From contig JAGCGH010000153.1 of NCBI GenBank assembly GCA_017649705.1, forward strand, positions 1 through 36,325: a stretch of 36,325 bases of DNA, given 5' to 3'. This DNA comes from a bacterium (GTDB lineage Bacteria; Auribacterota; UBA3054). This document shows positions 7,688 to 35,035 of the stretch, piece by piece; the first letter of the stretch is position 1; each line of letters begins with the position of its first letter. Below the pieces are notes generated by a model, which had not been told where the DNA came from, did no database searches, and was given only the letters and a program-made list of their open reading frames with translations. Made by a program: the position numbers and the translations under genes.

Positions 7688-8737
7688 TTATTTCTTTTCC
7701 TTGGCGGGGGCTTCCTCGCCGGGAAGCTCGCCTTTCAGAAGGCCGTACTTCTCCCTGATAAGGCCTTCTATCTTCTTGGCGAATTCGGGGTCGTTCTTGA
7801 GGTATTCCTTGCAGGCGTCGCGGCCCTGGGCCAGGCGCTGGTCGCCGAAAGAGAACCAGGCGCCGCGCTTCTGGATGATGTCCATGGCGGTAGCGACGTC
7901 GACGAGCGTTCCCTCGTAGGAGATGCCCTCGTCGTACATGATGTCGAACTCCGCTTCCTGGAAGGGGGCCGCCACTTTGTTCTTGACGACTTTCACCTTG
8001 GCCCTGATGCCGTTGGAGTTGCCGTCGCTGTCCTTCAGCGTGCTCATCCTGCGGATGTCCAGGCGGCAGGAGGAGTAGAATTTCAGGGCGCGGCCGCCGG
8101 TGGTGGTCTCGGGATTGCCGAACATCACGCCGATCTTTTCCCTGATCTGGTTGATGAAGATGCAGGCGCAGCGGGAGCGGCCGATTATGGAAGTAAGTTT
8201 CCTCAGGGCCTGGGACATCAGTCTCGCCTGGAGACCCACGAAGGAGTCGCCTATTTCGCCCTGGATCTCAGCCTTGGGAACCAGCGCGGCCACGGAGTCT
8301 ATTACCACCACGTCCACGGCGTTGGAGCGGACCAGCGTCTCGGCGATGGACAAAGCGTCCTCGCCGCAGTCCGGCTGGGAAATGAGAAGGCTGTCCAGAT
8401 CCACGCCTATTCTTCTGGCGTAGCCGGGATCCACCGCGTGCTCGGCGTCGATGTAGGCCGCCACGCCGCCCATCTTCTGGGCGTTGGCCACCACGCTAAG
8501 AGCAAGGGTTGTCTTGCCGCTGGATTCCGGGCCGTAAACTTCCGTGATCCTGCTTCTGGGAATGCCGCCCACTCCCAGGGCCAGGTCCAGGGTCAGGGCT
8601 CCGGTGGGGATGACCGGGATGTTGGCCACATGGTTTTCGCCCAGGCGCATGATGGAGCCCTGGCCGAACTGTTTCTCGATCTGGCCGATGGCGGCTTCCA
8701 GCGCCTTAAGTTTTTCGTTTTTTTCAGCAGATGCCAT
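7688..8737 (-). CDS. recA: Recombinase RecA
   Basis: 349 residues, normal RecA length. It contains the Walker A motif GPESSGKTT at 69-77, [15 protein letters not shown] (Walker B and following), the L1/L2 DNA-binding loop region around [21 protein letters not shown], and an acidic/lysine-rich C-terminus. RecA forms ATP-dependent filaments on single-stranded DNA for strand exchange and SOS induction. The reading frame stays open upstream, but the start at 8737 is chosen because homology begins with [10 protein letters not shown] and an AGGAG Shine-Dalgarno sits at 8745-8749. It is 23 bases after cinA and 9 bases before recX. No LexA box was recognised upstream, because recA sits inside a run of genes. 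Confidence 0.97.
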
Positions 8738-8760
8738 AATTTTTCTCCTGTATGTAAGTT

Positions 8761-9246
8761 TTAAATGATCTCGTCTATCATATCCAAGGCGGCCAAGATG
8801 GTGGAGCGCCTGATGTGCTCCCTGTCGCCTTTGAAAAGGAATTTTTTCGCGACGGTCCTGGACCTTATGGCCAGGCCGATCCAGACCGTGCCCACGGGGT
8901 TGGCGGAACCGTCGCCGCCGGGGCCCGCGACGCCGCTCACCGCGACCGCGATGTCGGTGTCGAAGAGCCTGAGCGAGCCCTCCGCCATGCGCCTCACGCA
9001 TTCCTCGCTGACCGCCCCTTCGCGGTCCAGCACTTCCTGCGGGACTTTCAGCAGGTCTCTTTTTATCTCGTTCTGGTAGGCCACGGCGGAACCCTTGAAC
9101 CAGGAGGAGCTGCCCGGCACGGAGACCAGGCAGGCCGAAAGGCCGCCGCCGGTCAATGACTCGGCGGTGGAGATGGTGAGCCCCTGGTAGAGAAGGCTCT
9201 CCCCTATTCTCCTGGCCAGTTCGGATTCTTTGCTGCCGTAGATCAT
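8761..9246 (-). CDS. pncC: CinA C-terminal domain / PncC-type nicotinamide-nucleotide amidase
   Basis: 161 residues, the size of a stand-alone CinA-C domain. Visible motifs are [32 protein letters not shown] and [11 protein letters not shown] followed by [10 protein letters not shown], all diagnostic. Family members deamidate nicotinamide mononucleotide in pyridine-nucleotide recycling. The reading frame is open further upstream, but the start at 9246 overlaps the stop of the preceding O-antigen ligase-like gene by ATGA and matches the family N-terminus. A cinA-recA neighbourhood is common in bacteria and supports both calls. Confidence 0.93.
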
Positions 9247-11798
9247 TCCCCGGCCTCCCCGCCGTTCTTTTCGCCTTCCCCCGGCTTGGCGTCCTGCCAT
9301 TCCTCCATGGCCACCGCCACGCCCAGGGAGCGGTCGTCCTGGAAGCCGTAGTGCCTGGGCATCCATTGCCGCGAGACGATTATGTCCAAAAAGTTGCGCG
9401 TCCTTTTGGGAATGTCGTCGGGTATGTCGTATTCGAAGGTCCGCCAGACTCTGTCGCCCAGCACCACCGTGTCGAGGTAATAGCCGTTTATGTAAAGCGC
9501 AGCCGAGACCGGATAATGGCGCAGCAGTGGATTCTGGGCCATCATTTTCAGTTTCAGCTCCTTCTTTTTCTTAAGCGCGAATTCGTGGTGGGCCTCCCCC
9601 TTGGTCCAGGCGTAAACGAGCCCGTCGGGAGTCCGCTCCTTGTCGTAGAAGCCGCCCTCGGGATCCGGCTCCTTGGTCCAGCGGAGATGGTCCATGGCCA
9701 CGCCCAGTACGCGCTCGTCCCCTTCCACGCCGTAATCCGCCGGCCGCCAGGTCTTCTCGCACTCCAGCCTGAAGGCGGTGCACTGTTCCGTCACCGCGTC
9801 GAATGGGAGAGCGTAGCTCACGGGCAGCTGGATGCGGCAGGCTTCCCCGGGGGTGGAGAGCGTCACGTTGGTCCGGCTCTCGCCGTTAATATAGACCGTC
9901 ACCCGCTGGGGATCTTTCTCCAGATCGGGATAGTTGCTGATCAGATTGAAGCTCACCCAGTCGTTCATCTTCTTGACGCAGAGGTATCCCTCTTTCCCGC
10001 ACCATCTCCAGGGACGGGACTGGGCGTGCCAGTTCTCCCAGGGATAGAAACCCGTCTCCCCTATCTGGCCGATGGAAGCCTGGCGCCTTTCGGCGTTGAG
10101 TTCTCCTATGTTGATCCGGCGGTAGAAATAAAAGGAGGAGGCGATGACCAGAACGGCGAACAGAACGCCCATGAACCTGGCCTCGCCGTGCCAGGTCACG
10201 TTGAGCCGCGACTGGATGGTCAGGGACGCCAGCACGGCGCCCAAAAGAATGTGCCAGGGAATGGAAACTTCCATGACCTCGGTGTGAACTCCCAGGATAA
10301 GCAGCAAGGAGAAGACCAGAAGGGGCGTGAAGAGAGCCCAAAGCTTGCCCAAAATTTCGTTCTCCCCGCGGCCCTGGAACCAGGAGGAGGCGAAGGAGAA
10401 GAAGATGCCTCCCATGAAGAGCGCGAGGCCCAGAAGGCCGAAGAGCCCGGTTTCCGCCTTCACCTGCAGATAAAAATTGCAGGCGTTGTCGGGAGCCCTC
10501 AGGTTCTCCTCCTCGTAGCGGGCAAAGTTCGGAAGCTCCACCACGAAGCTGCCGACGCCCACCCCGGAGGGCCAGGTCCTCTCGGCCGTCAGCTGCGCGA
10601 AGCGGGGGTAGAGCTGGCGCCGGCTGTCGTTGAATATGCGGGAAATGTGCCCGGAGTTCCTGATGCTCCTGATGTCTTTTTTCAAGCGGCGCTGCAGAGC
10701 CGGGCTCTTGGTGGTCCCGGTCAGTATCTTGTCCGCCTTGTTGACGAGCGTCATGCTGTACATGCCGGCGCCGGAAACAAGGACCAAAAGCGCCACCGCG
10801 ACGATCCCCAGCCTGACCAGCGGCCTGGCTGGCAATATGAGCTTGGTGTTGACAAAAAGGCCCGCCAGAAGGAATATGACCGTCAGCGCGATGGCCAAAA
10901 AGGCGCTTCGGGATCCGGAGTAGTTGATGCCCAGGCCGCAGAGCACGAGCCAAAGGAGGACGAGGGCGGGCTTGAGATATCCCTGGCGCGGACGCCAGGC
11001 GCTGAAAAAGGAAAGCCCGAAGGAGAAGGCCAGACCCAGCATCACGCCCAGGGCGTTGGGATCCTGGCAGGTGCCGTTGATCCGGCCCATCCTGACCCAG
11101 TAGAAGGAGCGGTTGGCGCAGAATTCGATGCTCACGTGGCGCTGGTAGAAAGCCGCCGCCAGGGCGACGGTGCAGCCCGCGGCGAAAAAGAGCCAAAGCG
11201 TCTTCACAAGCTTCAGATTGTCTGCTCCTTTCTCGGATTCGCGCATCGCCATCCTGTAGGCGAAGGGAATAAGCGAAAGCGAGGCCACCAGCTGGGAGGC
11301 GTTGAAGATTATGTATTTGACCGCGGTGATCCGGCTCCACTCCTTGTCGTTCACCACCTGATTGAGAAACTCCCTGTTCGAGACGACCCATTCCGGAGCG
11401 TAGCGGCTCAGGGAAGCCCAGACGCCCACCAGCACCACGCCGAACCAGATGAGCCAGCCCAGGGAGCCGCAGAAGGGTTCGATAGAATCCTTTTCGAAAA
11501 GCTCGTGCCAGCAAAGCCCCGCAAGGGCGGCCAGCATGACGAAGATGTGCATGGGATGAGTGCTTCCGCCGGTGGCCAGGAGCGGGACGGCGATCAGCCA
11601 CGGCGTGACGAAAAGCATCAATGAAAAAGCGTGCTTCGGACGCCAGACGGCCAGGAGGAAGACCGAAAGGGATATTCCCAAAAGGGGCGGCCAGACCCAG
11701 AGGTTCAGCGGCGCGAAATAATGGCAAAGCGCCGCTTCCCAGGCCAGGAAAAGCGAGCCCAAAAGAAACATGAAAACTTTAAAGAATATTCCAAACAT
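9243..11798 (-). CDS. O-antigen ligase/polymerase-like membrane protein with a duplicated C-terminal beta-sandwich
   Basis: 851 residues. About a dozen hydrophobic segments cover residues 5-560. Family signatures are the [14 protein letters not shown] segment (238-251), NYSGSRSAF (292-300) and the GVGVGSF ... [18 protein letters not shown] region (412-457), matching the Wzy/WaaL pattern of a PN--G motif, an SR-A/G motif and a loop ending in E-GL-G. The histidine often found before N-YL is replaced here by C440. After the last membrane segment come two similar modules, about 582-707 and 713-834, each ending in W-P--YG---D-R-LGVA. These enzymes transfer or polymerise lipid-linked glycans on the periplasmic face. 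The start has no Shine-Dalgarno; see the promoter 7 bases upstream. Confidence 0.82.
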
Positions 11799-12601: not shown

Positions 12602-13513
12602 ATGGACATTTCCTTCGTCATTCCTGTCTACAACGAAGAGGGCGACCTGCTTCAGCTCCATTCCGAGATCACCGCTCAGATGGCCAGGCTGGGCCGCTCC
12701 TACGAGATCTACTTCATTGACGACGGCAGCACCGACAGCTCCCTTGCCCTGATCAAAAAACTATCAGGGGAAGACGGCCATGTGCGCTGCGTCTCCTTCC
12801 GCCGCAACTTCGGCAAATCCGAGGCCCTCTCCGCCGGCTTCAGGAGAGTGACGGGGAAATACGTCTTCACCATGGACGCGGACCTGCAGGACGACCCCTC
12901 GGAAATACCCGCTTTCCTCGCCATGATGGAGGAGGGCTACGATCTGGTCTCGGGCTGGAAGAAGGAAAGGCACGATCCCCTGGAAAAGCGGCTGCCCTCC
13001 AAGCTCTTCAACGCGACCGTCTCCTGGATGACGGGCCTCAAGCTCCACGACTTCAACTGCGGTTTCAAATGCTACACGAAAGAGTGTACCGAGGAGCTTG
13101 ACGTTTACGGCGAGCGCCACCGCTTCATGCCGGCCCTGGCCAACGAAAGAGGCTTCAGGGTGGGAGAGCTGGCGGTGAACCACCGGGCCAGGATCCACGG
13201 CAAATCGAAATTCGGCCTTGAGCGCTACGCGCGCGGCTTCCTGGATCTTCTGACCGTTTCTTTCCTGGCAACCTACGCCAGGAGACCCGCCCACCTTTTG
13301 GGCGGCCTGGGCTTCCTCTCCCTGGCGCTGGGGGTCCTCTCATTCATCGTGGGGATCTTCCCCTTCCGCTTCAATCATCTCTTCCTTTTCCTGGGCTCCG
13401 CGCTGCTGGTCTTCGGCGGCCTGTCCGTCCTTCTCGGCCTCCTGGCCGAACTCGTCGTGGCCCGCTCCCGCGCGCCTCAGAAAACCATTCACTCTGTCAA
13501 GGAAGAATTTTAA
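12602..13513 (+). CDS. GT2 polyprenyl-phosphate sugar transferase (DPM1/GtrB/ArnC-like)
   Basis: 303 residues. The GT-A domain begins SFVIPVYNEE, with YFIDDGSTDSS at about 37-47 and an intact DAD at 92-94 (MDADLQDDP). The RRNFGKSEAL segment and HDFNCGFKCY are typical of dolichol/undecaprenyl-phosphate sugar synthases. Two membrane helices follow (about 233-255 and 262-290). Such enzymes load a sugar onto undecaprenyl phosphate on the cytoplasmic face, producing the donor for GT-C enzymes outside; a GT-C gene is encoded three genes downstream. The Shine-Dalgarno is weak (GAG only). The next gene starts 7 bases after this stop. Confidence 0.92.
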   Translation: MDISFVIPVYNEEGDLLQLHSEITAQMARLGRSYEIYFIDDGSTDSSLALIKKLSGEDGHVRCVSFRRNFGKSEALSAGFRRVTGKYVFTMDADLQDDPSEIPAFLAMMEEGYDLVSGWKKERHDPLEKRLPSKLFNATVSWMTGLKLHDFNCGFKCYTKECTEELDVYGERHRFMPALANERGFRVGELAVNHRARIHGKSKFGLERYARGFLDLLTVSFLATYARRPAHLLGGLGFLSLALGVLSFIVGIFPFRFNHLFLFLGSALLVFGGLSVLLGLLAELVVARSRAPQKTIHSVKEEF

Positions 13514-13520
13514 GGAATAA

Positions 13521-14951
13521 ATGACGACTTTTTTGATCGGACTTGGCATTCTCATAATAGGCGGCGCCCTCTACGGGCGCTTCATGGAGAGATTTTTCGG
13601 CGCGGACGACCGTCCCACGCCGGCTGTGAAATACAACGACGGCGTGGACTACGTTCCCATGCCCACCTGGAAGAACTGCCTCATCCATCTTCTCAACATC
13701 GCCGGCACCGGCCCGGTCCTGGGCCCCATCCAGGGCATCCTCTTCGGGCCCGTGGTCTTCATAACCATTCCTTTGGGCTGCGTGCTGGCCGGCGCCGTTC
13801 ACGACTTCATGATCGGCATGATCTCTCTTAGGAACGACGGCGCCCAGATGCAGGAACTGGTGAGGCGCTATCTTGGAAAACAGGTGGCCTACCTCTTCAA
13901 CGTCTTCATCTGCGTCATGGCGCTTTTGGTTGTGGTGGCCTTCACCTACTCCCCCGGCGATATCTTCGTCATCAGCTTCATGAAGCAGCAGGCCGCCGTG
14001 ACCAATCCCTGGACCTGGGCGGCCTACGGGCTCGTCTTCGTTTATTATCTTTTGGCCACTTACATGCCCATCGACAAGCTGATCGGCAGAGTGTATCCCG
14101 TGATCGGCAGCCTCTTCATCATTTCCGCGGTCATCATCTTCGTTTTGATCTTCACCGACCGGCTGCCCTTGCAGAACCTGACCCTTGAGAACTGGCGGGG
14201 CCTCAAACCCAACATGATCCCCTTATTCTTCGTGACCGTGGCCTGCGGCATCGCCTCGGGCTTCCACTCCACCCAGGCGACTTTGATCGCCCGCTCCGTC
14301 ACCCATGAGAAGTGCGGCCGCAAGGTCTTCTTCAACATGATGCTGGTGGAGGGCTTCATCGCCATGATCTGGGCGGCGGTCGCCATGGGCGTCATGGGCA
14401 AATACGGGCTCAGCAACGCCAGCAACGCCAACAAGACTCTCGTGGAGATCGTGAACACGCTGGTGGGCACGAAGGCCGGCATCATCGTCATGGCGGGCTT
14501 CATCGTGCTGCCCATAACCACGGGCGGCACCACCATGCGCATCCTGAGGATCATGCTGGGAGAACTGCTGAAAATTAAAAACGAGAACAAGCTCGGGAAA
14601 TTCTTTCTGGGCGTTTCCATCGTGGTGGCTTCCCTCTCGCTTCTTCTTTTGGTGAAATTCCAGCCCGACGGATTCTCCATCATCTGGCGCTACTTCGCCT
14701 GGTCCAACCAGGTGCTGGTGGTCTTCACCCTGGCGGTGGCCACCGCCTGGTGCGTCATGAACGACAGGACCATCCTCCTGACCGTGATTCCCGGCGCCTT
14801 CTATCTTTTCGTGGTCTCGAGTTTCATATTGAACGCCAAGGTCGGCTTCAACCTCTCCTGGGATCTCAGCTATCTGATCTCCGGCGTGCTGTCGCTGGCC
14901 TTCATCGGCTTCTTCAGTTACAAAAAACATACTTTCAAAGCGGTGGAATAA
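13521..14951 (+). CDS. cstA: CstA-family transporter, first of a tandem pair
   Basis: 476 residues, very hydrophobic, about 12 membrane segments. Hallmarks are DGVDYVPMPTW, LLNIAGTGPVLGPIQG and ACGIASGFHSTQATLIAR. CstA proteins import pyruvate or peptides under carbon limitation. This is the short form (E. coli CstA is about 700 residues). An AAGGA Shine-Dalgarno overlaps the upstream stop (13512-13516). It is followed after one base by a close paralogue; the two share a 49-base identical stretch (14333-14381 and 15765-15813), pointing to a duplication. Substrate is inferred from the family only. Confidence 0.9.
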   Translation: MTTFLIGLGILIIGGALYGRFMERFFGADDRPTPAVKYNDGVDYVPMPTWKNCLIHLLNIAGTGPVLGPIQGILFGPVVFITIPLGCVLAGAVHDFMIGMISLRNDGAQMQELVRRYLGKQVAYLFNVFICVMALLVVVAFTYSPGDIFVISFMKQQAAVTNPWTWAAYGLVFVYYLLATYMPIDKLIGRVYPVIGSLFIISAVIIFVLIFTDRLPLQNLTLENWRGLKPNMIPLFFVTVACGIASGFHSTQATLIARSVTHEKCGRKVFFNMMLVEGFIAMIWAAVAMGVMGKYGLSNASNANKTLVEIVNTLVGTKAGIIVMAGFIVLPITTGGTTMRILRIMLGELLKIKNENKLGKFFLGVSIVVASLSLLLLVKFQPDGFSIIWRYFAWSNQVLVVFTLAVATAWCVMNDRTILLTVIPGAFYLFVVSSFILNAKVGFNLSWDLSYLISGVLSLAFIGFFSYKKHTFKAVE

Positions 14952-14952
14952 C

Positions 14953-16446
14953 ATGATAACTTTTATCATCGGTCTCGTGATCCTCGGCATAGGCGGTCTT
15001 TCCTACGGCCTTTTCCTTGAGCGTTTCTTCGGCGTCAGCGACAGGCCCACGCCTGCCATGACCAAATCCGACGGCGTGGACTACGTTCCCATGGCCAGCT
15101 GGCGCAACGGCCTCATCCATCTTTTGAACATCGCCGGCACCGGCCCCATCCTGGGCCCCATCCAGGGCATTCTCTTCGGGCCTCTGGCCTTCGTGACCAT
15201 TCCCCTGGGCTGCATCCTGGCGGGCGCGGTCCAGGACTACATGGTGGGCATGATCTCCATCAGGAACGACGGCGAGCAGATCCAATCCCTTGTGAAGCGC
15301 TACCTCGGCAAGCAGGTGGCCCTCTACTTCGGCATCTTCGTCTTCCTGGCGGTGCTGCTGTTCGGCGTGACCTGCGTCTACACTCCCGGCGACATCTTCG
15401 TGAAAGGCGTGCTCCGTCAGAGCACCGCCATGAGCAATCCCTGGCTGTGGGTCATATACGCCGTGATCTTCATATATTACCTGATCGCAACATTGCTCCC
15501 CATCGACAAGATCATCGGCAAGGTCTACCCCTACATCGGGGCCTTCTTCATCTTCACGGCGCTTCTGCTCTTTTTTTACATCTTCCTGAAGAAGCTGCCC
15601 CTGGAGGAGCTCAGTCTCTCCAACTGGAAGGGCCTCAAGCCTAATTTCTTCCCGCTCTTTTTCGTCACCGTGGCCTGCGGCATAGCCTCGGGCTTCCACT
15701 CCACCCAGGCCACCATAATCTCCAGGACGCTGCGCTCTGAAAAGAAAGGCCGCTTCGTCTTCTACAACATGATGCTGGTGGAGGGCTTCATCGCCATGAT
15801 CTGGGCGGCGGTCACCATGGGCGTCATGAAGCTCTACGGCATCGACACCACAGGAGGCGCCACGGGCATGCTGGCCGAGATCATCGACAACGTTCTCAAG
15901 GTCTTCGACATCGGCAACGCCTCCCCGCATAACGACCTTGTCCACATCGTCGGCACGCTCTTCACCAACGGCATCGACATCATCGTAATTTTGGGCGTCA
16001 TCGTCCTGCCCATCACCAGCGGCGACACGGCGCTCCGGGGCTGCCGCCTGATGGCCGGAGAGATGCTGGGCATCGACCAGAGCAAGCCCGCGAACCGCCT
16101 GCTCCTGGGCGCCGCCATCTTTACGCTGACCGCCATTCTCCTGATCGTCGCCAAATTCAGCAACAGCGGCTTCCAGCTTCTCTGGCGCTACTTCGCCTGG
16201 GCCAACCAGACCATCGTGGCCTTCTCTCTGGCGGTGGCCACCGCCTGGTGCGTCAGGGAGGGCAAGGCCATCTGGGTCACGGTTCTGCCCGGCGCCTTCT
16301 ATCTGGCCGTCACCTCCTCCTTCATACTGAACGCCAAGATTGGCTTCAACCTGCAGTGGCCCGTGGCTTACATCATCGCCGCGGTCCTCGCTGTGGCCTA
16401 TATTCTCTACTTCGTCAATCTGAAGAAAAAAGCCTCCCTTAAATGA
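14953..16446 (+). CDS. cstA: CstA-family transporter, second of a tandem pair
   Basis: 497 residues. It aligns along its whole length with the preceding gene (same DGVDYVPMASW, NIAGTGPILGPIQG and GIASGFHSTQATIISR blocks). It carries an insertion of about 20 residues around residues 295-335 (TTGGATGMLAEIID, then GNASPHNDLVHIV) absent from its neighbour. It begins one base after the first copy's stop and overlaps the GT-C gene by ATGA, so all are probably translated from one mRNA. Divergence in the insertion region suggests the two copies may differ in substrate or form a heteromer; that is inference. Confidence 0.9.
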   Translation: MITFIIGLVILGIGGLSYGLFLERFFGVSDRPTPAMTKSDGVDYVPMASWRNGLIHLLNIAGTGPILGPIQGILFGPLAFVTIPLGCILAGAVQDYMVGMISIRNDGEQIQSLVKRYLGKQVALYFGIFVFLAVLLFGVTCVYTPGDIFVKGVLRQSTAMSNPWLWVIYAVIFIYYLIATLLPIDKIIGKVYPYIGAFFIFTALLLFFYIFLKKLPLEELSLSNWKGLKPNFFPLFFVTVACGIASGFHSTQATIISRTLRSEKKGRFVFYNMMLVEGFIAMIWAAVTMGVMKLYGIDTTGGATGMLAEIIDNVLKVFDIGNASPHNDLVHIVGTLFTNGIDIIVILGVIVLPITSGDTALRGCRLMAGEMLGIDQSKPANRLLLGAAIFTLTAILLIVAKFSNSGFQLLWRYFAWANQTIVAFSLAVATAWCVREGKAIWVTVLPGAFYLAVTSSFILNAKIGFNLQWPVAYIIAAVLAVAYILYFVNLKKKASLK

Positions 16447-21293: not shown

Positions 21294-21314
21294 TAGTCCT
21301 CGTAAAATTTGAGC

Positions 21315-21389
21315 GCCGCAGTAGCTCAATGGCAGAGTACCTGGCTGTTAACCAGGGTGTTGTTGGTTCGAGTCCATCCTGCGGCGCCA
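21315..21389 (+). tRNA. tRNA-Asn (anticodon GUU)
   Basis: A 75-base cloverleaf with acceptor stem GCCGCAG/CTGCGGC, discriminator G and encoded CCA. The anticodon stem CCTGG/CCAGG encloses CTGTTAA with anticodon GTT. The T loop is TTCGAGT; the T stem has one T-T mismatch. Confidence 0.97.
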
Positions 21390-21400
21390 TTTTATAAAAA

Positions 21401-21434
21401 GGCCTTCGCTTCGGCGGAGGTCTTTCTTTTTTTT
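21401..21434 (+). terminator. Rho-independent terminator after tRNA-Asn
   Basis: A 9-bp stem (GGCCTTCGC with GCGGAGGTC, two G-T pairs) closed by a TTCG tetraloop at 21410-21413, then TTTC and eight T residues. Confidence 0.9.
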
Positions 21435-21442
21435 GCTAGAAT
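21434..21442 (+). promoter_or_regulatory. Extended -10 promoter for the secreted metalloprotease-like gene
   Basis: TGCTAGAAT directly follows the terminator T tract. No good -35 is seen. Transcription would start near 21449, about 22 bases before ATG 21471. Confidence 0.5.
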
Positions 21443-21470
21443 AGTAGTGAATAAAATTAAGGATGGCTCT

Positions 21471-24359
21471 ATGAAAAAGACTTTTGCGTTTCTGGCTCTT
21501 TTATGCTGCGCCGCCGCTTTCGGCGAGACTTCCAAATTCACCTTCGAGGACAACTCCGGCTCCATAGACGGGCAGGACGGCTGGACCGCCTCCGGGAACG
21601 TCAGGGTCGTCGAGAGCATGGCCGCTTCCTCCACCAACGACATTCTTGTTTCCGCCTGGCACGCCTACGGCGCCAAGGCGCTCGAAATGGAGGGCTCCTC
21701 TTCCCTCTCCCGCTCCGTTTCCATATCGGCTGGCAGCGAGCAGAGGCTCGCCTTCGACTTTTACGCCGCCTGGCCGGATGAGGAAAACACGAGATCTCTT
21801 GTCTTCAAGCTTGGCGATGTTCCCATCTTGAAACTGGAATCGGGCGGCACCAACGTCGTCTCCGCCCTTGTCTTCGGACATTATTTCGGCGGCGAAGCCG
21901 AATGGCAGCCCGTTCCCGGCGTGCAGACGCTCTTCCACCGCAAATGGCAGCACATCGAAGTCCTCTTCGATAGAGATCACCTCCTGAAGCTGAAAGCCCC
22001 CAATATGGACGCCGAGCTCGTCGGATTCGCCTTCTCCGGGCAGATCCCCGCGGCCGAGACTACTTTTTCCGCGGAAAGCGATTATGAAAAGATCTATCTC
22101 GACAATTTTAGATTTTTGGAAGAGCCCGCCGCCCATGAAACGCTCATAGACGACCGCGCCGGCGCCGATCTGGGGCTCGGCCAGTCTTATGAAACTTCCT
22201 TCGCAACGAAAACTTCCTTCGGCGGTCTGGAGCTTAGCTGCGCCCTTAATATCCCGGCAAACTGCATGGGCTTCATCACTCTCAACGGTTTTCCCGTCCC
22301 TTTGAGCGAGCTTCCCCTCTCCGCCGGAGAGAACGTCATATCATTTGGATTCCTAAAGGACAGCCGTTTGGTCAAGGCCCAGGTCAACGGAGCGGACGTC
22401 GACGCGAGCGCTCTGAGCCTTACTCTGCCTGACACTGTGAATATAAAGATAACCAGCCTTTCCACCGGCTCCCTGAAGGTCAAGGGCGTCTTCGCCCAGA
22501 ACTGCCTGCCCGTTGTCTACGGCGAAACGGCCTCCATAGATCTATTGATGGTGGCCTACACCGGCGGCGGCAACAACACGCCTCCCGAAAACTACACCAA
22601 TTTGTATTATCCCAAGGTGCAGGATTTCTATTTCCGCAATTCCAACGCCCAGCTTCTTTTGAAATACGATCCCGTCTACCGCCACATCATCCCGCCCGCG
22701 GAAACTTTCTTCCGCGATTATGAGAACGAATTCGGCGAAAAGGAAGTAGGCGGCAGGATCATGGCCAGGGATCTGAGGAAAACGCTGGGCGTTTGGAACC
22801 AGGAGTACGATCTTTTCGTCTTCACCTGCGGCAACGGCTGGAACAGCTGGGGCGGCAACTGGGGCGGCGGCTCCTACGGGTATACCGGCATGGGCATGAT
22901 CATGTGCTCGCAGGTCGGCAACTACGGCGGCAGCGGCACGGGCTTCGTGACAGTCCACGAAGTCATGCACTCCGTCGACCAGATGTACTCCTACAGCGGC
23001 TACCAGGAATACTCAAGCTCGCACCCGGACGGCTGCAGCTACGGCTGGGCCGGAGGCGGCGACACCTGGTCCTGGTGCGGCACCGCCATGCGCCCCTTCA
23101 CGAATTACTTTAAGCTGCGCACTCCCTGGAAAAGCACCTATGTCTTCCGCGACAGCGACCTGGACGGCCTGGCCGACAACGATCCCGTCCTTCCCATAGA
23201 CGAGGTGAGGATGAGTTCCGATCCCACCAAAACGGACACGGACATGGACGGCCTCGACGACCTTAAGGAATATCTCGTGGGGCTCTATTATCCCAGCGAC
23301 GCCAACGATCCTGACACTGACAAAGACGGGTTGAAGGACGGCGACGACCCATATCCCATCATTCCTTACAACAAGAGCATTCCGAGGCTTCTTGTGGAAC
23401 CAACTATCGACGGCTTCATCGAAGAGGGCGAATGGACTTACTGGGGCTCCGGCACGGGAGACAGCGAGGATCCGGAATTTGAGGTGACGGCTTACGCCGG
23501 CTGGCGGGACGACGCTTTGTACCTCGCCTTCAAGACCAACAAGAAGTGCTCCTTCACCATGGAGGTGGACGGCTCGGCCTGGTCCGGCCCCTGGCACGGC
23601 GGCGACTACTTCAAGTTCAAAGCCCACAACCAGTATTACAACAGGATATACGCCGCCGCCAACGACGAGAACAGCGTTCAGGACTGGAAGTGCGGAAACG
23701 TTCCCGCCGGTTCCCGCTGCATCAAAAAGGACAACGAGCTGGGCGGCGTGACCGCGGAAGTCAAGATCCCCTGCAACCTGAGGTCCATAAAGGGCTACAC
23801 TTGCTGGCCCGGCGAGGAGCCCACCAACTGCTTCAAGTGCGTCTCCGGAGGACAACTGGGACTTCTGGTAAGCTATGAAGGCATAGGTCTTGATAGAGTC
23901 GATGTCGACGACTATCATCCCGAACCCTGGGCCTCTTCCTTCGAAAGGATGGACTGGCACGTCTTCGACCTGGTGGAAGCCGACACCTCCTTCGCCCTGC
24001 TTTCCGCCAAGCCTGAGAACACGGAACTCCACTTGGGCGAATTTGAGCCCATCGACCTCACCTTCGTAAACTACGGTCCCACGGGCGATGCCGACGTCAC
24101 GATCGAATCGGCTGGCCCGGTCTACTATTCCGGCATGGCAACGATCACCCTGGAAGGCTTGGGAGCGACCACCGCCGTCACGGCAGCCTTCCCCATTCCC
24201 GAAAACGAGGAAGCCGCCGGCCTGACCGACTTCAACATCATAACGTCCATGAACGGCAGGGCCGTGACCAACACCTATTCCTGGGTCGTGGTGCCGGAAA
24301 GCACGTCCCTTGCGGCCCTCCTGCTTCTCCTGGCCCTTGCCATGAAAAGATCGCGTTAA
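21471..24359 (+). CDS. Secreted zinc-metalloprotease-like protein with calcium-binding repeats, CBM9-like domain and PEP-CTERM-like tail
   Basis: 962 residues. The open frame runs back through the tRNA, but ATG 21471 is chosen because it has an AAGGA Shine-Dalgarno (21459-21463) and opens a signal peptide (MKKTFAFLALLCC, cleavage likely after AFG). An N-terminal LamG-like region lies at about 20-215. A putative protease region holds HEVMH at 496-500, the zincin HExxH pattern. Three thrombospondin-type-3-like DxDxDG segments are at about 560-628 (DSDLDGLAD, DTDMDGLDD, DTDKDGLKD). A CBM9/DOMON-like domain is at about 640-830. The tail is VPES, a hydrophobic helix and KRSR, a variant of VPEP. 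The role is probably a surface-anchored enzyme; the third zinc ligand is not identified, so proteolysis is inferred. Confidence 0.82.
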   Translation: MKKTFAFLALLCCAAAFGETSKFTFEDNSGSIDGQDGWTASGNVRVVESMAASSTNDILVSAWHAYGAKALEMEGSSSLSRSVSISAGSEQRLAFDFYAAWPDEENTRSLVFKLGDVPILKLESGGTNVVSALVFGHYFGGEAEWQPVPGVQTLFHRKWQHIEVLFDRDHLLKLKAPNMDAELVGFAFSGQIPAAETTFSAESDYEKIYLDNFRFLEEPAAHETLIDDRAGADLGLGQSYETSFATKTSFGGLELSCALNIPANCMGFITLNGFPVPLSELPLSAGENVISFGFLKDSRLVKAQVNGADVDASALSLTLPDTVNIKITSLSTGSLKVKGVFAQNCLPVVYGETASIDLLMVAYTGGGNNTPPENYTNLYYPKVQDFYFRNSNAQLLLKYDPVYRHIIPPAETFFRDYENEFGEKEVGGRIMARDLRKTLGVWNQEYDLFVFTCGNGWNSWGGNWGGGSYGYTGMGMIMCSQVGNYGGSGTGFVTVHEVMHSVDQMYSYSGYQEYSSSHPDGCSYGWAGGGDTWSWCGTAMRPFTNYFKLRTPWKSTYVFRDSDLDGLADNDPVLPIDEVRMSSDPTKTDTDMDGLDDLKEYLVGLYYPSDANDPDTDKDGLKDGDDPYPIIPYNKSIPRLLVEPTIDGFIEEGEWTYWGSGTGDSEDPEFEVTAYAGWRDDALYLAFKTNKKCSFTMEVDGSAWSGPWHGGDYFKFKAHNQYYNRIYAAANDENSVQDWKCGNVPAGSRCIKKDNELGGVTAEVKIPCNLRSIKGYTCWPGEEPTNCFKCVSGGQLGLLVSYEGIGLDRVDVDDYHPEPWASSFERMDWHVFDLVEADTSFALLSAKPENTELHLGEFEPIDLTFVNYGPTGDADVTIESAGPVYYSGMATITLEGLGATTAVTAAFPIPENEEAAGLTDFNIITSMNGRAVTNTYSWVVVPESTSLAALLLLLALAMKRSR

Positions 24360-24617: not shown

Positions 24618-25262
24618 TTATTCGCTCAGCGGATTGACCACGTTCACGTTCTTGGCGGTGTAGACCAGACCAGGAGTGACCATGATGGTGCCGCCAGCCT
24701 GTTTGGCTTTGAAGGCGACCTTCTTGGGGGTCGTGATGCCGGTGCCTTCGACTTCGCCGAACTGGCTGCACTGGATGCTCTTGAAGTTACCAGCGACGAT
24801 GCCTTCGACTTTGCCGACGGCCTTGAGGGCGGTGCCTTTCGCGAAAGCGCCAGCTTCCACGGTGCCGTTAACATTGGCAACCTGAGCGCTCTTCAGACCA
24901 GCGCAAACGACGGTGCCGACGGTGATGCCTTTCAGCTTAAGAGCGACGCCGTTGAAGCCGGAGAAAACGCCGTTGATGGTGCCGGAAACCTTGCCGCCTT
25001 TCTGGGCGATGGCTTTGCCGGTGTCAGCTTTGACGACGATGTTGCCGTTGGCCATGGTGAACTGGACCTGGCCCTTGTCACCCAGCTGGGTGCCGAAATC
25101 GACGAAAGTGGTGCCGGTTTCTTCATCAAAGGTGACAATCGGGGTCACGGCGGGCTTGGCGAAGCCTTCCAGACCTTCGCAGAAGACCTGCGGGGTCTTG
25201 GCAGCGTAAGCGATGGCAGCGATAACGAGTAAAGAAGCAACGATGATCTTAGTAGCTTTCAT
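24618..25262 (-). CDS. Small secreted protein of unknown function
   Basis: 214 residues. I do not recognise the family. A clear signal peptide (MKATKIIVASLLVIAAIAYA, cleavage before AKT) is followed by a mature part rich in Gly, Val, Lys, Ala and Thr. Short beta-prone phrases such as GTVVCAGLKSAQVANVNGTV and KVEGIVAGNFKSIQCSQF suggest an all-beta or beta-solenoid fold. Three cysteines occur in the mature part; there is no lipobox and no PEP-CTERM tail. The start at 25262 is chosen over the upstream in-frame ATG at 25295 because GGAGA lies at 25269-25273 and the signal peptide begins here. A strong promoter, a folded leader of about 190 bases and a strong terminator make this a likely highly expressed single-gene unit. 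Confidence 0.78.
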   Translation of the reverse strand: MKATKIIVASLLVIAAIAYAAKTPQVFCEGLEGFAKPAVTPIVTFDEETGTTFVDFGTQLGDKGQVQFTMANGNIVVKADTGKAIAQKGGKVSGTINGVFSGFNGVALKLKGITVGTVVCAGLKSAQVANVNGTVEAGAFAKGTALKAVGKVEGIVAGNFKSIQCSQFGEVEGTGITTPKKVAFKAKQAGGTIMVTPGLVYTAKNVNVVNPLSE

Positions 25263-25459
25263 TTTATGTCTCCATAAATGTGGTATTTTAAACAATGTCT
25301 CCCAAACGGAATCAACAAATGTGACTCCCCTCCGGTGGGACGTTTCCCCGCCCGGAACCTTCCGGGCTAAGATAAAGGGCTCGTTTCCCTGTATTGAAGG
25401 CCTTAACGCTCGAAGCTGTTATCCGGCCTTTCACTCTGCATTGTTTCAAAGGTCAGAGT
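25263..25459 (-). promoter_or_regulatory. Structured 5' leader of the small secreted-protein gene
   Basis: About 190 bases between the promoter and the start codon. Read on the minus strand, the leader can form: ACTCTG/CAGAGT (25454-25459 with 25433-25438); AAGGCC/GGCCTT (25425-25430 with 25397-25402) enclosing a second small helix with a TCG loop; two similar GGGAAACG-type hairpins closed by CCC; and a perfect GCCCGGAA-GG-TTCCGGGC stem between them. I could not match it to a named riboswitch class. It may be a cis-regulatory RNA or an mRNA-stabilising leader. Confidence 0.45.
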
Positions 25460-25460
25460 T

Positions 25461-25489
25461 AGTGTAGCAGAATAGGGGTTAAAAATCAA
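25461..25489 (-). promoter_or_regulatory. Promoter of the small secreted-protein gene
   Basis: Minus strand: -35 TTGATT (25484-25489), 17-base spacer, -10 TACACT (25461-25466) preceded by TGC. The -35 contains the TGA stop codon of the upstream GtrA-fusion gene (25486-25488), so the promoter is embedded in the end of that gene. Confidence 0.7.
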
Positions 25490-28400
25490 CCCCCTCCCCC
25501 GGGGCCGCCCTGCCGCGGCTCTCTGTTCCCCTCGGACAGCTCGTTTTCCCAGGCGTGCTGCCGTTCCTTTTCCTCCAGGCGCAGCGCCGCCTCATCCTTT
25601 TCCCTGCGAATCACCCAGTTCAGAGGGTCGCGTTTCCACTTTTCAGAGAAATCTCCGTCTATCCTGCGGAAGGAGACGTCCGTGAATTCGACCGCTCCCG
25701 GGCTGGCGACGTTCTCGCTTCCCAGGCAGAAGAAGGAGAGGTTTTCCGCGCTGTTGGTTATGATCATATACTCCTGCGTCCACTGCCCGCAGAGCGTCCG
25801 CCATTTCTTGGCCCGGACCTCCGGAATTCCTCTTTGCCTGAAGCGCATGGATACTTCCGAGGGGGCTTCCCTGCCTTCGGGGATCCTGGCGTACGCGGAA
25901 GCGGCGTAAACGCCGGGGGGCAGCAGCATCCTGACCGTGGCCCCCGCCTTGCCGCCCGGTTCGCCCTGCTCGGAGAGCTTGTATCCGGGGGTGGAGAGGA
26001 AGGTCGTGGGAAGTTTCTCTTCGCTTTCGGATTCGGCGCGCCAGTCTCCCAGGCCTTTGATGAAATAGCCGTTCATCAGCTGTTCGAAGTCCTCGAAAAA
26101 CAAGACCGCGTGCCTGGGCAGGGAGTTGGTTATGATGCCGCCCATTTCTTTCTGGGCGCTTTCCGTGGCCGGCAGATCGTTCCTTTGGGACATGGCGCGC
26201 TTATACTCCTCCCATTCCCTGACGAAGGCCACGTTCTCGGGGCGGTGGAGATAGATCTTGTCGAAGGTCTCCGTGAAAGCCCGGAAGTTCTCGTCCGCGA
26301 AACCGTACTGCTTTTTGAAGAGGCTCGGCGACATGAAGGAGATATCGCCTCTGGCTTTGTAATAGACGTCGAAGAGGAGCCAGGGATCCGGCGTTTCCTC
26401 CCGGAGCAGCTCGAACATGCGTTTGGCGCCGCCGGTGTCGCGGGTCTTTGTGCAATAGAAAAGCCGGCCTATGCTGTTGCGGCTTTTTTTCAGCTCGTCA
26501 ACGGAGGCTCCCTCAAGGCCCTTTACGATCCATTTGCGGTAGGCTTTCCTGACGCTTATGACGGTATAGTCGTCAAGGGACAGGGGCGGCAGGTAAAGCA
26601 GCTGAGTGCTTATTTCATAGAGGGCGTCGGCGCTCCAGGGAGCGCGCGCGCACTCGGCCAGGGCCAGGGTCATGGCAGCCAGCTGCTGGGGGGAGTGGAT
26701 CTTCTCCACGGACTTAAGGAGCGCCGTGGTGTCGTTGAGGGCCATTACGGTGCAGATGTCGCTGACGGAGCGGAAGTCCGGACGGCCTATGGTGGAAATG
26801 AACCACCAGGCGTAGCCCGTCTCGCCCAGGAAATGGTCGTCGGCGGAGAGATAGTCGTTGTTTTCCAAAAACGTCCACTTGCGGGAAAGCTTTCTTCTCT
26901 GCTCATAGCGCAGAACGTCGTAAAGCGAGGAGGAGCCCAGGCGGCCCTCCTCTCCCTTGCCTACGCCGGGAAGGATGATTATGTCTCCGGTCCGGAAGCC
27001 GCTTCCCTGGTTGTCCAGGATCTGGCAGACTTTTTCCATAACGTCCGAAAGGTCGCTGCTCTCAAGTTCGTAGGAGGAGCGCTTGTAACCGAAAAGGAAT
27101 ATGACAAGCGGCAACACTATGATGACCGCCGCCAGAGGCCTGAGGCGCGGGTTCCCAGCGAAGCGGCTGAAGGCCCTGGCCATCAGCGTGGCCAGGCGGC
27201 CTATGAGGATCCCTCCCTGGCCTATGATCGCCGCCAGAAAGACCGCGGAGGCGTAGCCCGCCGTCCCCGGATTCAGCTCGGTCACCCTAAGGTAGAAATA
27301 AAAGAAAACGGAGCTTAAGATGCCGTAGAGCCCGCAGCGCTTCAGATCCGTCAGCCACATCAGAAGGGCGCCAAGAAGGACCGAAAGGCCGCAGAGATAT
27401 TCCGTGTTGTTGAGCCACGGTGTGACCATGGCCGGATTCGGGGAGGAGGCGATCCAGAAGTTTCCGTTCACTTCGAATTTCGTGGGGTCCAATGTCCCGC
27501 AGAAAAAATAGATGGCCGCTATGGGCAGAAGCAGCGGCAGCAATCTGGAGATAGCGAGGACGGCGAAACTGCCGACGGTCTTCTGCCTGGCGTTCCAGAT
27601 AATGCCGATGCTCTGGGTAAGGAAGATCAAAACAAGGCACAGGAACGCAAAGGACGGCATGGCTCCCGGGAAGCCCGCCAGCAGGGAGATCAGAAGGCAG
27701 CGGAAAAGGTAATACTTATATCCGCTCTGGTAGCTTTTCAGCGCGGCGCAGTAGGAGGTCAGGATAAGCAGAAGGATGGTCAGCTGCAAAACGAAAAGTC
27801 CGCCGTCCAGCTGCAGGATGTTTTTCCCGGCCAGGAAAAACACCAACCCCACGGTCACGGCGGTGGAGGCCGAGAGTATCCCCACCAGGCCTTGGATAAG
27901 CGCCAGCACCACAAGGCAGCAGGCGGATATGGCAAAGGACATCAGGCAGTACTGGGTCGGCGTCACCAAAAGCGCGTAGTTCAGCTTAGCGCAGAGCCTG
28001 GCGTAGGCTATCTGCAGCATTGTGAAAACGGCGCCGCTGCGGTCCGCGGATTCGCTCAGGAAGACGTCCTTTAAACTTTCGAACATATGGGCCTGGCGGA
28101 ACACATGCCCCTGGTCCATCGAGAAATTGCTGTAAACGCCCCGGGAGACTTTCCAGAGGCAGAAGACCGCCGCGACGATGATAAGGACGGCGATAACTTT
28201 CGCGCTGATCCCGATGAAAAGACGGCTGCCGCCTATCCGGAAGCCCCGGCTTGGGGAACCCGCTCCCTCCTCGTTTTGCGGAAGCGGGGAAACATAGGCG
28301 TCCTCGCGGTAGTTGTAATAGGCGTCCCCTTCGTTTTTCCTTCTGAAAAGCGAGGCGCACCAGTCCGCGATGTCCGTTATCCTGAAGAAAGCGAGGAAAG

Positions 28401-29097
28401 CGAAAAATCTCTCGGACATGGAAACGCGCTCGCCCTCCGATTCATCCTCGTCCTGGGAAGAGAAGAGAAAGGAGTAAAGGGCGGCGAACTTGTCCTGGCA
28501 GAAATCCTGGGTCATCATCAAGACGGTGTGGAAGGGCCTGGCCTCGCTGTCCAATCCCTCCCCGGCCTCCCCGCCGCTTTCCTCCGCGCTCTCGGAAGCT
28601 TCAGGCGCCGCCTCTTCCTCCGCCGTGCCTTTGAAAACGAACTTCTTGCCCAGGACGTAATTCAAAACAATGACGACGGGCTGGGTTATGTACTTGGCCG
28701 CCACACCGGGATCCAGGATAACGAAAGAGAAACTGCATCCGCCCAGGGCGAAGGCCAGGTCGAAATCTTTGGGAATGACGTAGGCCAGAAGAGTCGTAAG
28801 CGCGACGTCCACCACGCCGGACAAACCCCTTACTATGGCGAAGCGCCCTATCTCGAAGCCAAGCTCCTTGTTGTCTTTGCAATGGGAGGCGAAGACCCAG
28901 AGCTTGTTGGAAACGTAGGCGAAGATCTTCGCGCAAATGACCGAGATGACGCCGGAGGTGGTGACCCCCACCCCGGCCCGGAACAGGACGTGGTACACGC
29001 CCACGTTGACCACGGTGGTCAGTACACCGCAGACAAGGTAGACAAGGAACTCCCTCAGCTTCTTTTTCTTTTTTCGCGCATCGGCCATAAACAGCAT
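25486..29097 (-). CDS. GtrA-domain fusion: polytopic (GT-C-like) membrane protein with C-terminal carbohydrate-binding-like domain
   Basis: 1203 residues. Residues 16-155 form a GtrA domain with four membrane helices and the two family N--WVF/N---FVF ends (NKLWVF at 64-69, NYVLGKKFVF at 146-155). An acidic Glu/Ala/Ser linker follows (160-187). Residues about 293-315 begin a second membrane block of roughly ten helices to about 670, with FSMDQGHVF in its first external loop, reminiscent of GT-C acidic motifs. About 690-1000 is soluble and helical; about 999-1146 looks like a CBM4/9-type beta-sandwich. GtrA proteins are thought to flip polyprenyl-phosphate sugars. Fusion to a transferase-like body would link flipping and transfer; this is inference. 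An alternative start is 29088. Confidence 0.75.
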   Translation of the reverse strand: MLFMADARKKKKKLREFLVYLVCGVLTTVVNVGVYHVLFRAGVGVTTSGVISVICAKIFAYVSNKLWVFASHCKDNKELGFEIGRFAIVRGLSGVVDVALTTLLAYVIPKDFDLAFALGGCSFSFVILDPGVAAKYITQPVVIVLNYVLGKKFVFKGTAEEEAAPEASESAEESGGEAGEGLDSEARPFHTVLMMTQDFCQDKFAALYSFLFSSQDEDESEGERVSMSERFFAFLAFFRITDIADWCASLFRRKNEGDAYYNYREDAYVSPLPQNEEGAGSPSRGFRIGGSRLFIGISAKVIAVLIIVAAVFCLWKVSRGVYSNFSMDQGHVFRQAHMFESLKDVFLSESADRSGAVFTMLQIAYARLCAKLNYALLVTPTQYCLMSFAISACCLVVLALIQGLVGILSASTAVTVGLVFFLAGKNILQLDGGLFVLQLTILLLILTSYCAALKSYQSGYKYYLFRCLLISLLAGFPGAMPSFAFLCLVLIFLTQSIGIIWNARQKTVGSFAVLAISRLLPLLLPIAAIYFFCGTLDPTKFEVNGNFWIASSPNPAMVTPWLNNTEYLCGLSVLLGALLMWLTDLKRCGLYGILSSVFFYFYLRVTELNPGTAGYASAVFLAAIIGQGGILIGRLATLMARAFSRFAGNPRLRPLAAVIIVLPLVIFLFGYKRSSYELESSDLSDVMEKVCQILDNQGSGFRTGDIIILPGVGKGEEGRLGSSSLYDVLRYEQRRKLSRKWTFLENNDYLSADDHFLGETGYAWWFISTIGRPDFRSVSDICTVMALNDTTALLKSVEKIHSPQQLAAMTLALAECARAPWSADALYEISTQLLYLPPLSLDDYTVISVRKAYRKWIVKGLEGASVDELKKSRNSIGRLFYCTKTRDTGGAKRMFELLREETPDPWLLFDVYYKARGDISFMSPSLFKKQYGFADENFRAFTETFDKIYLHRPENVAFVREWEEYKRAMSQRNDLPATESAQKEMGGIITNSLPRHAVLFFEDFEQLMNGYFIKGLGDWRAESESEEKLPTTFLSTPGYKLSEQGEPGGKAGATVRMLLPPGVYAASAYARIPEGREAPSEVSMRFRQRGIPEVRAKKWRTLCGQWTQEYMIITNSAENLSFFCLGSENVASPGAVEFTDVSFRRIDGDFSEKWKRDPLNWVIRREKDEAALRLEEKERQHAWENELSEGNREPRQGGPGGGG

Positions 29098-29123
29098 GCT
29101 AACTTTTCAAAACTATAATAAGA

Positions 29124-29152
29124 ATTTTATCACAAATCCTTTCCCCGACCAA
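29124..29152 (-). promoter_or_regulatory. Promoter of the GtrA-fusion gene
   Basis: Minus strand: TTGGTC (29147-29152), 17-base spacer, TAAAAT (29124-29129) preceded by TGA as an extended -10. It would give a leader of about 20 bases with only a weak ribosome-binding sequence. Confidence 0.5.
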
Positions 29153-29224: not shown

Positions 29225-29317
29225 GGAGAGATGGCTGAGTGGACGATAGCAACGGCTTGCTAAGCCGTCATACGGTGTTTAACCGTATCGAGGGTTCGAA
29301 TCCCTCTCTCTCCGCCA
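29225..29317 (+). tRNA. tRNA-Ser (anticodon GCU)
   Basis: A 93-base class II tRNA. Acceptor GGAGAGA pairs with TCTCTCC; discriminator G and CCA are encoded. Anticodon stem ACGGC/GCCGT encloses TTGCTAA with anticodon GCT. A long variable arm (TACGGTG-TTTAA-CCGTA region) and a TTCGAAT T loop are present. Confidence 0.97.
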
Positions 29318-33842: not shown

Positions 33843-34085
33843 ATGGCGATAAAAGAATTTGATTTGAATTACCTGGCGGACGAGCTGAAGGACGTTACCT
33901 TCGTCAGCTGGTTCGTGAAAGAAGGCCAAAGCGTCAAGGAAGGCGACGATCTTTGCGAAGTCGTCACCGACAAGGCCTCCCTTACCCTCTCGGTCCCCGC
34001 CGACGGCGTTATATCCAAGCTGAAATGCCAAAAGAACGACAAGCTTGAGGGCGGTTCCGTCCTCCTTTCCATGGAAGTAAAATGA
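33843..34085 (+). CDS. Stand-alone lipoyl/biotinyl-type carrier domain
   Basis: 80 residues that are little more than one lipoyl-like domain: VSWFVKEGQSVKEGD, then EVVTDKASLTLSVPADG, then a LEGGSVLLSME end. The lysine in the hairpin (K44 in TDKA) is the expected attachment site, and the DKA motif favours lipoate over biotin. Lipoyl domains are normally parts of E2 acyltransferases, or GcvH at about 125 residues; neither E2 nor lipoate ligase genes are here. It overlaps the next gene by ATGA and follows hisG by 2 bases, so it is co-translated. The partner enzyme is unknown. Confidence 0.8.
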   Translation: MAIKEFDLNYLADELKDVTFVSWFVKEGQSVKEGDDLCEVVTDKASLTLSVPADGVISKLKCQKNDKLEGGSVLLSMEVK

Positions 34086-35035
34086 TCGTTTTTGCGGATG
34101 ATTACGAAAACGGGCAGCCCATCAAGCGCCAGCCTCTCTCCGAGGGCCTGGTGGCGGTGATCCTTGCCCACAACGACGAGAAGACCATCCAGTCCGTCAT
34201 CAAGAAGACCGCCCGCAAATGCGAGCGCTGCATCGTGGTGGACGACGGATCGGACGACAAGACCGTGGAGATCGCCCAGCAATCAAGGGCGGAGGTCATC
34301 ACCCACGTCAGCTCCAGAGGCATGATCGCGGCCTTCAACACCGCCGTGGCCTTCCTGAGGCCCCTGAATTACAAGTACGCCATTTTCCTTTCAGCCAGCG
34401 GACAGCACGAGCCCGGCGACATGCACCGCTTCGTCAGGGCCGCGCAGATAAGGAACGCCGACGTCATCTGCGGCAGCCGCGAGAAGAACAGAAGAAGCAT
34501 CCCGCGTCTCACCAAATGGGCCAACTACATGGCGGACGGCTGCATCAAGTTCAAGTACGGCTACCGTCTCAACGACCCTCTTTGCAACTACCGCCTGCTT
34601 TCCAAAAAAGCCCTGGACACCCTGCCTCCCTGCAGGCACAATTATTTATTGACCGCCCACATCCTTCGCCACGCCTACGGATTGAAGCTGAGGGTCGGCC
34701 ATTTGGCCGTCACCGTGGGCCACAATTACGTGACGAAGCCCGCCCGGGCCAGAAGGGACTTCAAGCAGAGCCTCTACATGTCGCTCTTCATACTCTTCAC
34801 TCCCAATCCCAGTTTGGAGAAAAAAGAGAAGAAAGCCGCCCGCAAGTTGGCTGAGGAAAGCTCGAAGCCCATCGTGAAGCCCATCGACGAGACGGAAAGA
34901 AAACCCAGGCGCAAAAAACGCCGCTACGGAAACAGAAGGCGCAGCGCCTCCGACATCAGGGAAATGAAAGACCGCATCATGGACAGCAAGAGTCCCGAAG
35001 TCCTGAAAGAGGAACAGGAAGCGAAATTCAGTTAA
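34082..35035 (+). CDS. GT2-family glycosyltransferase-like protein lacking the DxD motif
   Basis: 317 residues. GT-A fold features are present: VAVILAHNDEKTI near the start, IVVDDGSDDKT at 51-61 and a GMIAAFNTAVAFL helix. Where relatives read DADGQH, this protein has SASGQH (S104-A105-S106), so both metal-binding aspartates are absent. There are no obvious membrane helices. The C-terminus (about 250-317) is highly charged, with RKPRRKKRRYGNRRR. It may be an inactive or repurposed transferase, or use another metal site. It overlaps the lipoyl-domain gene by ATGA. Confidence 0.8.
   Translation: MIVFADDYENGQPIKRQPLSEGLVAVILAHNDEKTIQSVIKKTARKCERCIVVDDGSDDKTVEIAQQSRAEVITHVSSRGMIAAFNTAVAFLRPLNYKYAIFLSASGQHEPGDMHRFVRAAQIRNADVICGSREKNRRSIPRLTKWANYMADGCIKFKYGYRLNDPLCNYRLLSKKALDTLPPCRHNYLLTAHILRHAYGLKLRVGHLAVTVGHNYVTKPARARRDFKQSLYMSLFILFTPNPSLEKKEKKAARKLAEESSKPIVKPIDETERKPRRKKRRYGNRRRSASDIREMKDRIMDSKSPEVLKEEQEAKFS

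Follow-up and report, generated by a model that had tools for sequence, protein, structure and literature searches.

A Single Chain Joining a GtrA Flippase-Type Domain to a Polytopic Membrane Body and a Carbohydrate-Binding-Like Module in One Auribacterota Genus

Introduction

In extracytoplasmic glycosylation, the flippase (GtrA) and the transferase are normally separate proteins. A 36,325-nucleotide stretch of DNA from a bacterium of the Auribacterota lineage UBA3054 (contig JAGCGH010000153.1, assembly GCA_017649705.1; hereafter the window) contains a frame that seems to depart from this arrangement. The frame, located at 25486..29097, comprises 1203 codons and a stop, as described in the original prediction, and lies on the minus strand. 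The encoded chain consists, in order, of a GtrA domain, an acidic linker, a membrane body with 11 predicted helices, a periplasmic helical region, and a predicted C-terminal beta-sandwich of the type found in carbohydrate-binding module (CBM) families 4/9/16/22. Is this chain a genuine protein, and could it both flip a lipid-linked sugar and transfer it to an acceptor? We conclude that the fusion is genuine and conserved, and we favor, with a confidence somewhat above even, its interpretation as a single-chain flippase and periplasmic glycosyltransferase of a polyprenyl-phosphate-sugar system.

Conservation and Distribution of the Fusion

A whole-genome search covering 98 genomes found orthologues inside the genus only: each of its seven other genomes carries one, at 80–82% identity in two and 50–52% in the other five. 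The fusion is therefore present in eight of eight genomes of the genus, and the frame is open across the junction of the GtrA domain and the body in every one of them; six copies are complete, and the other two end at contig edges with the junction still inside. The locus is likewise conserved: the gene order, compared in each genome only as far as the contig or the fetched stretch reaches, is a gene for a 225-amino-acid secreted protein, the fusion gene, and then CAAX-protease-like, Rho-like, RuvB, HisG, GT2, and saccharopine dehydrogenase-like genes. The ratio of non-synonymous to synonymous substitution rates (dN/dS), determined for each region, is 0.10–0.32 in the clade 1 comparisons and 0.04–0.40 in clade 2, in which some dS values are saturated. 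These ratios are well below 1 in every region, and the fusion is under purifying selection. Between the two clades, identity is highest in the GtrA domain (69%), followed by the body (56%), the CBM (55%), the middle region (40%), and the linker (38%), and the fusion as a whole evolves faster than its neighbors (approximately 50% versus 78–98% identity).

Draft genomes in many contigs, together with the usual occurrence of GtrA as a separate protein, might raise the suspicion that an assembly error or a frameshift has joined two genes. However, eight separate assemblies carry one open frame with synteny maintained, the residues of the linker are conserved, and both flanks of the junction have a dN/dS well below 1. 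The original prediction had named a consistent break between residues 160 and 290 as the sign of such an error; the homologues were inspected for one, and none was found. We therefore reject the artefact, to which we assign a negligible probability, and the true fusion that had been claimed is confirmed by its eight orthologues and conserved locus. The equivalent of Met4 (position 29088) is the first residue in all orthologues, and so the protein probably starts there and is really 1200 amino acids in length. Upstream of this codon, the region at 29089..29133 on the minus strand contains an A+T-rich, −10-like element (TGATAAAAT / TGCTAGAAT / GCTAAAAT) that recurs in both clades when the eight upstream regions are compared by eye; a consensus scan did not pick up this element, and no Shine-Dalgarno sequence is obvious in the eight regions. 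These upstream regions suggest that the fusion gene probably possesses its own promoter and a short leader.

A search of PVC genomes for homologues with the same fusion had been suggested; such homologues are present within the genus, and none was found across the phylum or more widely. Profile searches of the phylum and of a sample of 384 genomes detected no relatives of the body outside the genus. The best match (E = 0.0018) was a 52-residue piece of a 69-codon frame with a stop, and was taken as chance. Two scans of viral contigs revealed no deeper relatives, and a plasmid search gave GtrA matches only. A GtrA match is present in 90 of the 384 sampled genomes; among the frames longer than 600 amino acids in that sample, GtrA was nowhere else found joined to a polytopic body. 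One long GtrA frame (in G287) proved to be a GT2-GtrA protein, which is another kind of fusion, and those of G169 and G305 each comprised a short GtrA gene inside an artificially long frame, adjoining a GT-C-like gene, and were not fusions. Two unrelated genomes have a free-standing GtrA gene directly next to one for a GT-C-like protein, and such split-gene associations are precedents for the pairing of GtrA with GT-C, though no proof of it. Four free-standing GtrA genes in the phylum have no obvious split ancestor in their neighborhoods. Within the genomes sampled, the fusion is thus confined to one genus, whose members apparently live in the gut; its parts are known, and their arrangement is seen nowhere else in the sampled genomes.

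The GtrA Domain and the Linker

The GtrA domain, of the four-helix lipid-linked-sugar flippase type, occupies residues 16–157 (28627..29052, minus strand). The presence of this domain, as had been claimed, is borne out by Pfam: residues 20–155 match PF04138 with E = 3.4e-16 and a score of 59.9 bits (cut-off 26.1 bits), over profile positions 2–117 of 117. An Enterococcus GtrA and this domain share 41% identity in the alignment used. Eight residues of Listeria GtcA (A65, N69, V73, F74, F91, R95, K121, and N132) are more than 99% conserved among homologues; R95 and N132 are required for glycosylation of both lipoteichoic acid (LTA) and wall teichoic acid (WTA), K121 for that of LTA, and F74 and F91 for that of WTA, while substitutions of A65, N69, and V73 have no effect (PMC7389260). 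The corresponding residues of the fusion (A60, N64, V68, F69, F86, R90, K135, and N146) have identical spacing and are invariant in the eight orthologues, and all five residues that are important in Listeria are present. The assignment of this half of the protein to the lipid-linked-sugar flippase type, which rests on these sequence comparisons, is the strongest functional inference of the present analysis.

It might be argued that the GtrA domain has degenerated into a membrane anchor or a dimerization module devoid of flippase activity, because the protein is long, evolves fast in comparison with its neighbors, and has a 19-residue hydrophobic insert ahead of the last GtrA helix. However, the invariance of all eight GtcA residues, and the fact that GtrA is the most conserved region of the chain (69% between clades versus 38–56% elsewhere), make this explanation improbable.

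The acidic linker that had been predicted between the GtrA domain and the second block of helices is found at residues 158–293 (28219..28626, minus strand). An acidic stretch is followed by two conserved amphipathic or hydrophobic segments (approximately residues 189–212 and 229–251), and the linker, placed in the cytoplasm by the predicted topology, is the fastest-changing part of the chain.

The Membrane Body and the Periplasmic Tail

The polytopic body spans residues 294–675 (27073..28218, minus strand). The second block of helices had been put at about ten; family-averaged hydropathy predicts 11, between residues 296 and 671. The loops on the inner side (before helices 3, 5, 7, 9, and 11) contain Lys or Arg and nearly no Asp or Glu, a clear charge distribution that would place the long loops and the tail outside. 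The first extracytoplasmic loop (residues 317–385, 69 residues; 27943..28149, minus strand) carries the motif [DN]Q[GD]HxFRQAHMFE and is a candidate for the donor or catalytic loop of a GT-C enzyme. A short second outer loop (residues 426–433; 27799..27822, minus strand) contains NxLQLDGG, and the loop joining helices 7 and 8 (residues 532–566, 35 residues; 27400..27504, minus strand) has the invariant elements D537P, FWI, and SSPNP. E340, D344, D431, and D537 are invariant in the orthologues. Apart from the first loop and the one after helix 7, the outer loops of the body are short.

The body is followed by a periplasmic helical region (residues 676–1004; 26086..27072, minus strand), for which no family match was found and in which the AlphaFold2 model contains helices at residues 800–967 with a local pLDDT of up to approximately 80. 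The terminal domain (residues 1005–1147; 25657..26085, minus strand) forms a beta-sandwich in a full-length model that is otherwise poor (local pLDDT approximately 50–70), and its top Foldseek matches are CBM16, CBM22, and CBM4 structures (probability 1.00, E approximately 1e-3, TM by target length 0.43–0.50). The domain itself gives no direct match to PF02018; it matches a congeneric two-CBM protein (31% identity; profile probability 87%, E = 4e-6) that in turn matches PF02018 (CBM_4_9) at 5e-15. The fold comparison and this congeneric bridge support a jelly-roll of the CBM4/9/16/22 type, in line with the carbohydrate-binding-like end of the original prediction. CBMs on GT-C enzymes are known from EmbA-C, AftD, and GT136, with acceptor binding shown for EmbC, AftD, and the GT136 member (PMC11127046).

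Is the Body a GT-C Enzyme?

GT-C enzymes have 7–13 helices and a catalytic extracytoplasmic domain that usually follows helix 1 (PMC11127046). The predicted topology of the body, with long loops after helices 1 and 7 and the tail outside, fits this layout. In addition, its helix spacing (83, 23, 23, 34, 20, 27, 56, 23, 26, 39) parallels that of the PMT_2 protein of the window (52, 24, 20, 20, 35, 21, 29, 62, 28, 33, 31). In a permutation test of spacing against five GT-C sets from the same genus (four of them groups of GT-C proteins, the fifth a GT-C-like protein from a split operon), the joint p is 0.0015 and three sets are significant alone (p = 0.0003–0.0025); a CstA-type control that is not a GT-C protein gives p = 0.30.

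Several observations weigh against a GT-C identity or against the wider proposal built on it. The permutation test was designed post hoc, once the pattern had been seen, and two of the five GT-C sets are not significant alone (p = 0.11 and 0.19). Comparison of the body with the PMT_2 sets by hhalign gave a probability below 1%, whereas four genuine PMT_2 sets matched at 92–98%. The position of the acid in loop 1 shifts between residue 328 in one clade (MDQGH) and residue 330 in the other (MNQDH), which is unusual for a catalytic Asp. The structure prediction that had been suggested for residues 290–690 was run and is too poor to serve as a test of fold (pLDDT 49 and pTM 0.41 for the body; pLDDT 41 for the full length), because the protein has few relatives and little sequence depth; Foldseek with the body model gave TM values of at most 0.21. 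Finally, the nearest conserved GT2 gene (34082..35035, plus strand) encodes SAS or SGS in place of DxD in the window and in five congeners.

The body might instead be another polytopic protein, such as a transporter, a Wzy/ligase-like enzyme, or a non-catalytic scaffold, with the fused GtrA domain supplying or clearing lipid-linked sugars. The failed hhalign comparison and the mobile acid of loop 1 speak for this explanation, as would the top-ranking Foldseek matches to MFS transporters, had their TM of 0.15 not made them meaningless. Since long loops after helices 1 and 7, together with a periplasmic tail that has a CBM at its end, make up the layout of GT-C enzymes, and since the helix spacing matches that of the GT-C proteins of the genus, we regard it as unlikely. 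That the body lacks a named family, as had been noted, is borne out: a Pfam search with the body of all eight members at E ≤ 10 gave nothing beyond unrelated chance matches in single members, a search of PDB sequences gave no match, and neither Pfam nor hhalign places it in PMT_2 (PF13231). Topology and helix spacing favor the GT-C type, which we consider likely, and the body is assigned to no family. The GT-C-like body of the original prediction accordingly stands as a favored but unproven reading.

Another explanation, which is compatible with a flippase-transferase chain, concerns the range of its flippase half: the GtrA domain could be a general flippase that also serves the other GT-C enzymes of the cell, likened to the single GtrA proteins of Listeria and Lactococcus; the fusion would then merely link it to one client among several. 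The genome encodes only two GtrA domains for approximately five PMT_2 proteins, and one GtrA flippase is reported to serve several GT-A/GT-C pairs (PMC8035078). On the other hand, the second GtrA domain, that of a GT2-GtrA protein, is kept in the genus beside another GT-C-like gene; therefore, the supply of flippase may be divided. We regard the general flippase as a real possibility that falls short of probable. In the same genome, a row of three genes (L037 4101-7490, plus strand) encodes a GT-C-like protein (432 amino acids), a CBM-type protein (332 amino acids), and the GT2-GtrA protein (361 amino acids), and the congeners have a frame of 434–435 amino acids with a weak PMT_2 match (E = 0.003–0.01) within a few kilobases of the GT2-GtrA frame. 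These arrangements, too, count as precedents for the association and not as proof.

A Model for the Fusion Protein

A feasible model for the flippase-transferase reading may be that the chain unites the final two steps of an extracytoplasmic glycosylation system with three components. A separate cytoplasmic GT2 would make a polyprenyl-phosphate-linked monosaccharide, which the GtrA domain would flip to the outer leaflet. The 11-helix body, as a divergent GT-C-type enzyme, would take the sugar off the lipid in a cavity beneath loop 1 and the helix 7–8 loop and transfer it to a periplasmic acceptor, probably a polysaccharide, held by the helical region and the CBM. Through this tethering, the transferase would own its flippase. 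It is also tempting to speculate, although we are more inclined to doubt than to accept it, that the body is the founding member of a new GT-C family and that this chain is the first natural fusion of a flippase and a transferase to be described; the sugar-lipid would then pass straight from GtrA to the active site, and flipping and transfer would be physically coupled.

The donor could come from either of two GT2 proteins of the window. The product of 12602..13513 (plus strand) is an ArnC/GtrB-like membrane GT2 (PDB ArnC, E = 3e-45; GtrB [sll0501], E = 3e-27; PF00535) and is a candidate source of polyprenyl-phosphate-sugar; its gene lies 12 kb from the fusion, in another cluster, beside a PMT_2 GT-C gene. 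The GT2 gene at 34082..35035, DPMS/ArnC-like and conserved in synteny, retains a VVDDGS motif; its product is a candidate partner, or perhaps a glycosyltransferase that is non-catalytic throughout the genus. The small secreted protein of 225 amino acids, encoded co-directionally downstream of the fusion (24618..25295, minus strand), adjoins it wherever the contig reaches and is possibly a partner or the acceptor. This protein is 86–96% identical across the genus, beside the much faster-evolving fusion.

Other Features of the Window

A tRNA-Ser gene (29225-29317, plus strand) lies between the fusion and the divergent CAAX-protease-like gene. The cluster of the ArnC-like GT2, PMT_2, and a WecE-type transaminase also includes two tandem CstA-domain proteins (13521-16446, plus strand), unusual company for a carbon-starvation transporter, whose orthologues stand beside PMT_2 genes in congeners. 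A Wzy_C/O-antigen-ligase-like protein (9243-11798, minus strand), with a long C-terminal region resembling two repeated beta domains, appears to give the genus a further membrane-bound glycan enzyme whose end domain is periplasmic. Two large secreted proteins have PEP-CTERM-like ends: that of 27-2660 (plus strand) ends in VPEP...KRR and matches CotH kinase, and that of 21309-24359 (plus strand) ends in VPEST...KRSR. The latter frame overlaps a tRNA-Asn gene (21315-21389), and its true start must therefore lie further in. RecA (437 amino acids; 7688-9001, minus strand) has an N-terminal extension, its RecA domain beginning at residue 99.

Comparison with Known Systems

For the small transporters that have been proposed to flip lipid-linked sugars, flippase activity still lacks direct evidence (PMC11127046). 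A stable natural fusion would fix the stoichiometry and pairing of GtrA with its transferase, offer a larger single structural target in which flipping and transfer could be separated by mutating one half, and add a genus-restricted candidate to the GT-C families. It is of interest to specialists in envelope glycans.

Systems composed of GT-A, GtrA, and GT-C proteins have been reviewed (PMC8035078). In the three-component Gtr/GtcA type (gtr of Shigella and Salmonella; CsbB-GtcA-YfhO of Listeria and Bacillus), a GT-A polyprenyl-phosphate-sugar synthase, a GtrA flippase, and a GT-C transferase act together. The fusion resembles these systems in having a GtrA domain with all key residues and a GT-C-like body, in a genome with GT2 enzymes for lipid-linked sugars. 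By contrast, its flippase and putative transferase form one chain, no dedicated GT2 gene lies directly beside it, and its body has no sequence relation to the GT-C proteins tested. Toward PMT_2/ArnT-type GT-C enzymes, the body shows likeness in topology and helix spacing and none in sequence or profile. In GT136 (Citrobacter ORF12), EmbA-C, and AftD, as in the fusion, the membrane body precedes an extracytoplasmic domain that ends in a CBM; the available text describing them mentions no fused flippase (PMC11127046). The fusion differs from them in possessing one, in its helical middle region between the body and the CBM, and in the lack of a detectable sequence relation. Finally, in the DPMS-like GT2-GtrA fusions, including that of the genus itself (L037 6405-7490), GtrA is likewise joined to another component of its pathway. 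In those proteins, however, GtrA is C-terminal to a cytoplasmic donor synthase, whereas in the present chain it is N-terminal to a putative outer-side transferase, at the opposite end of the pathway.

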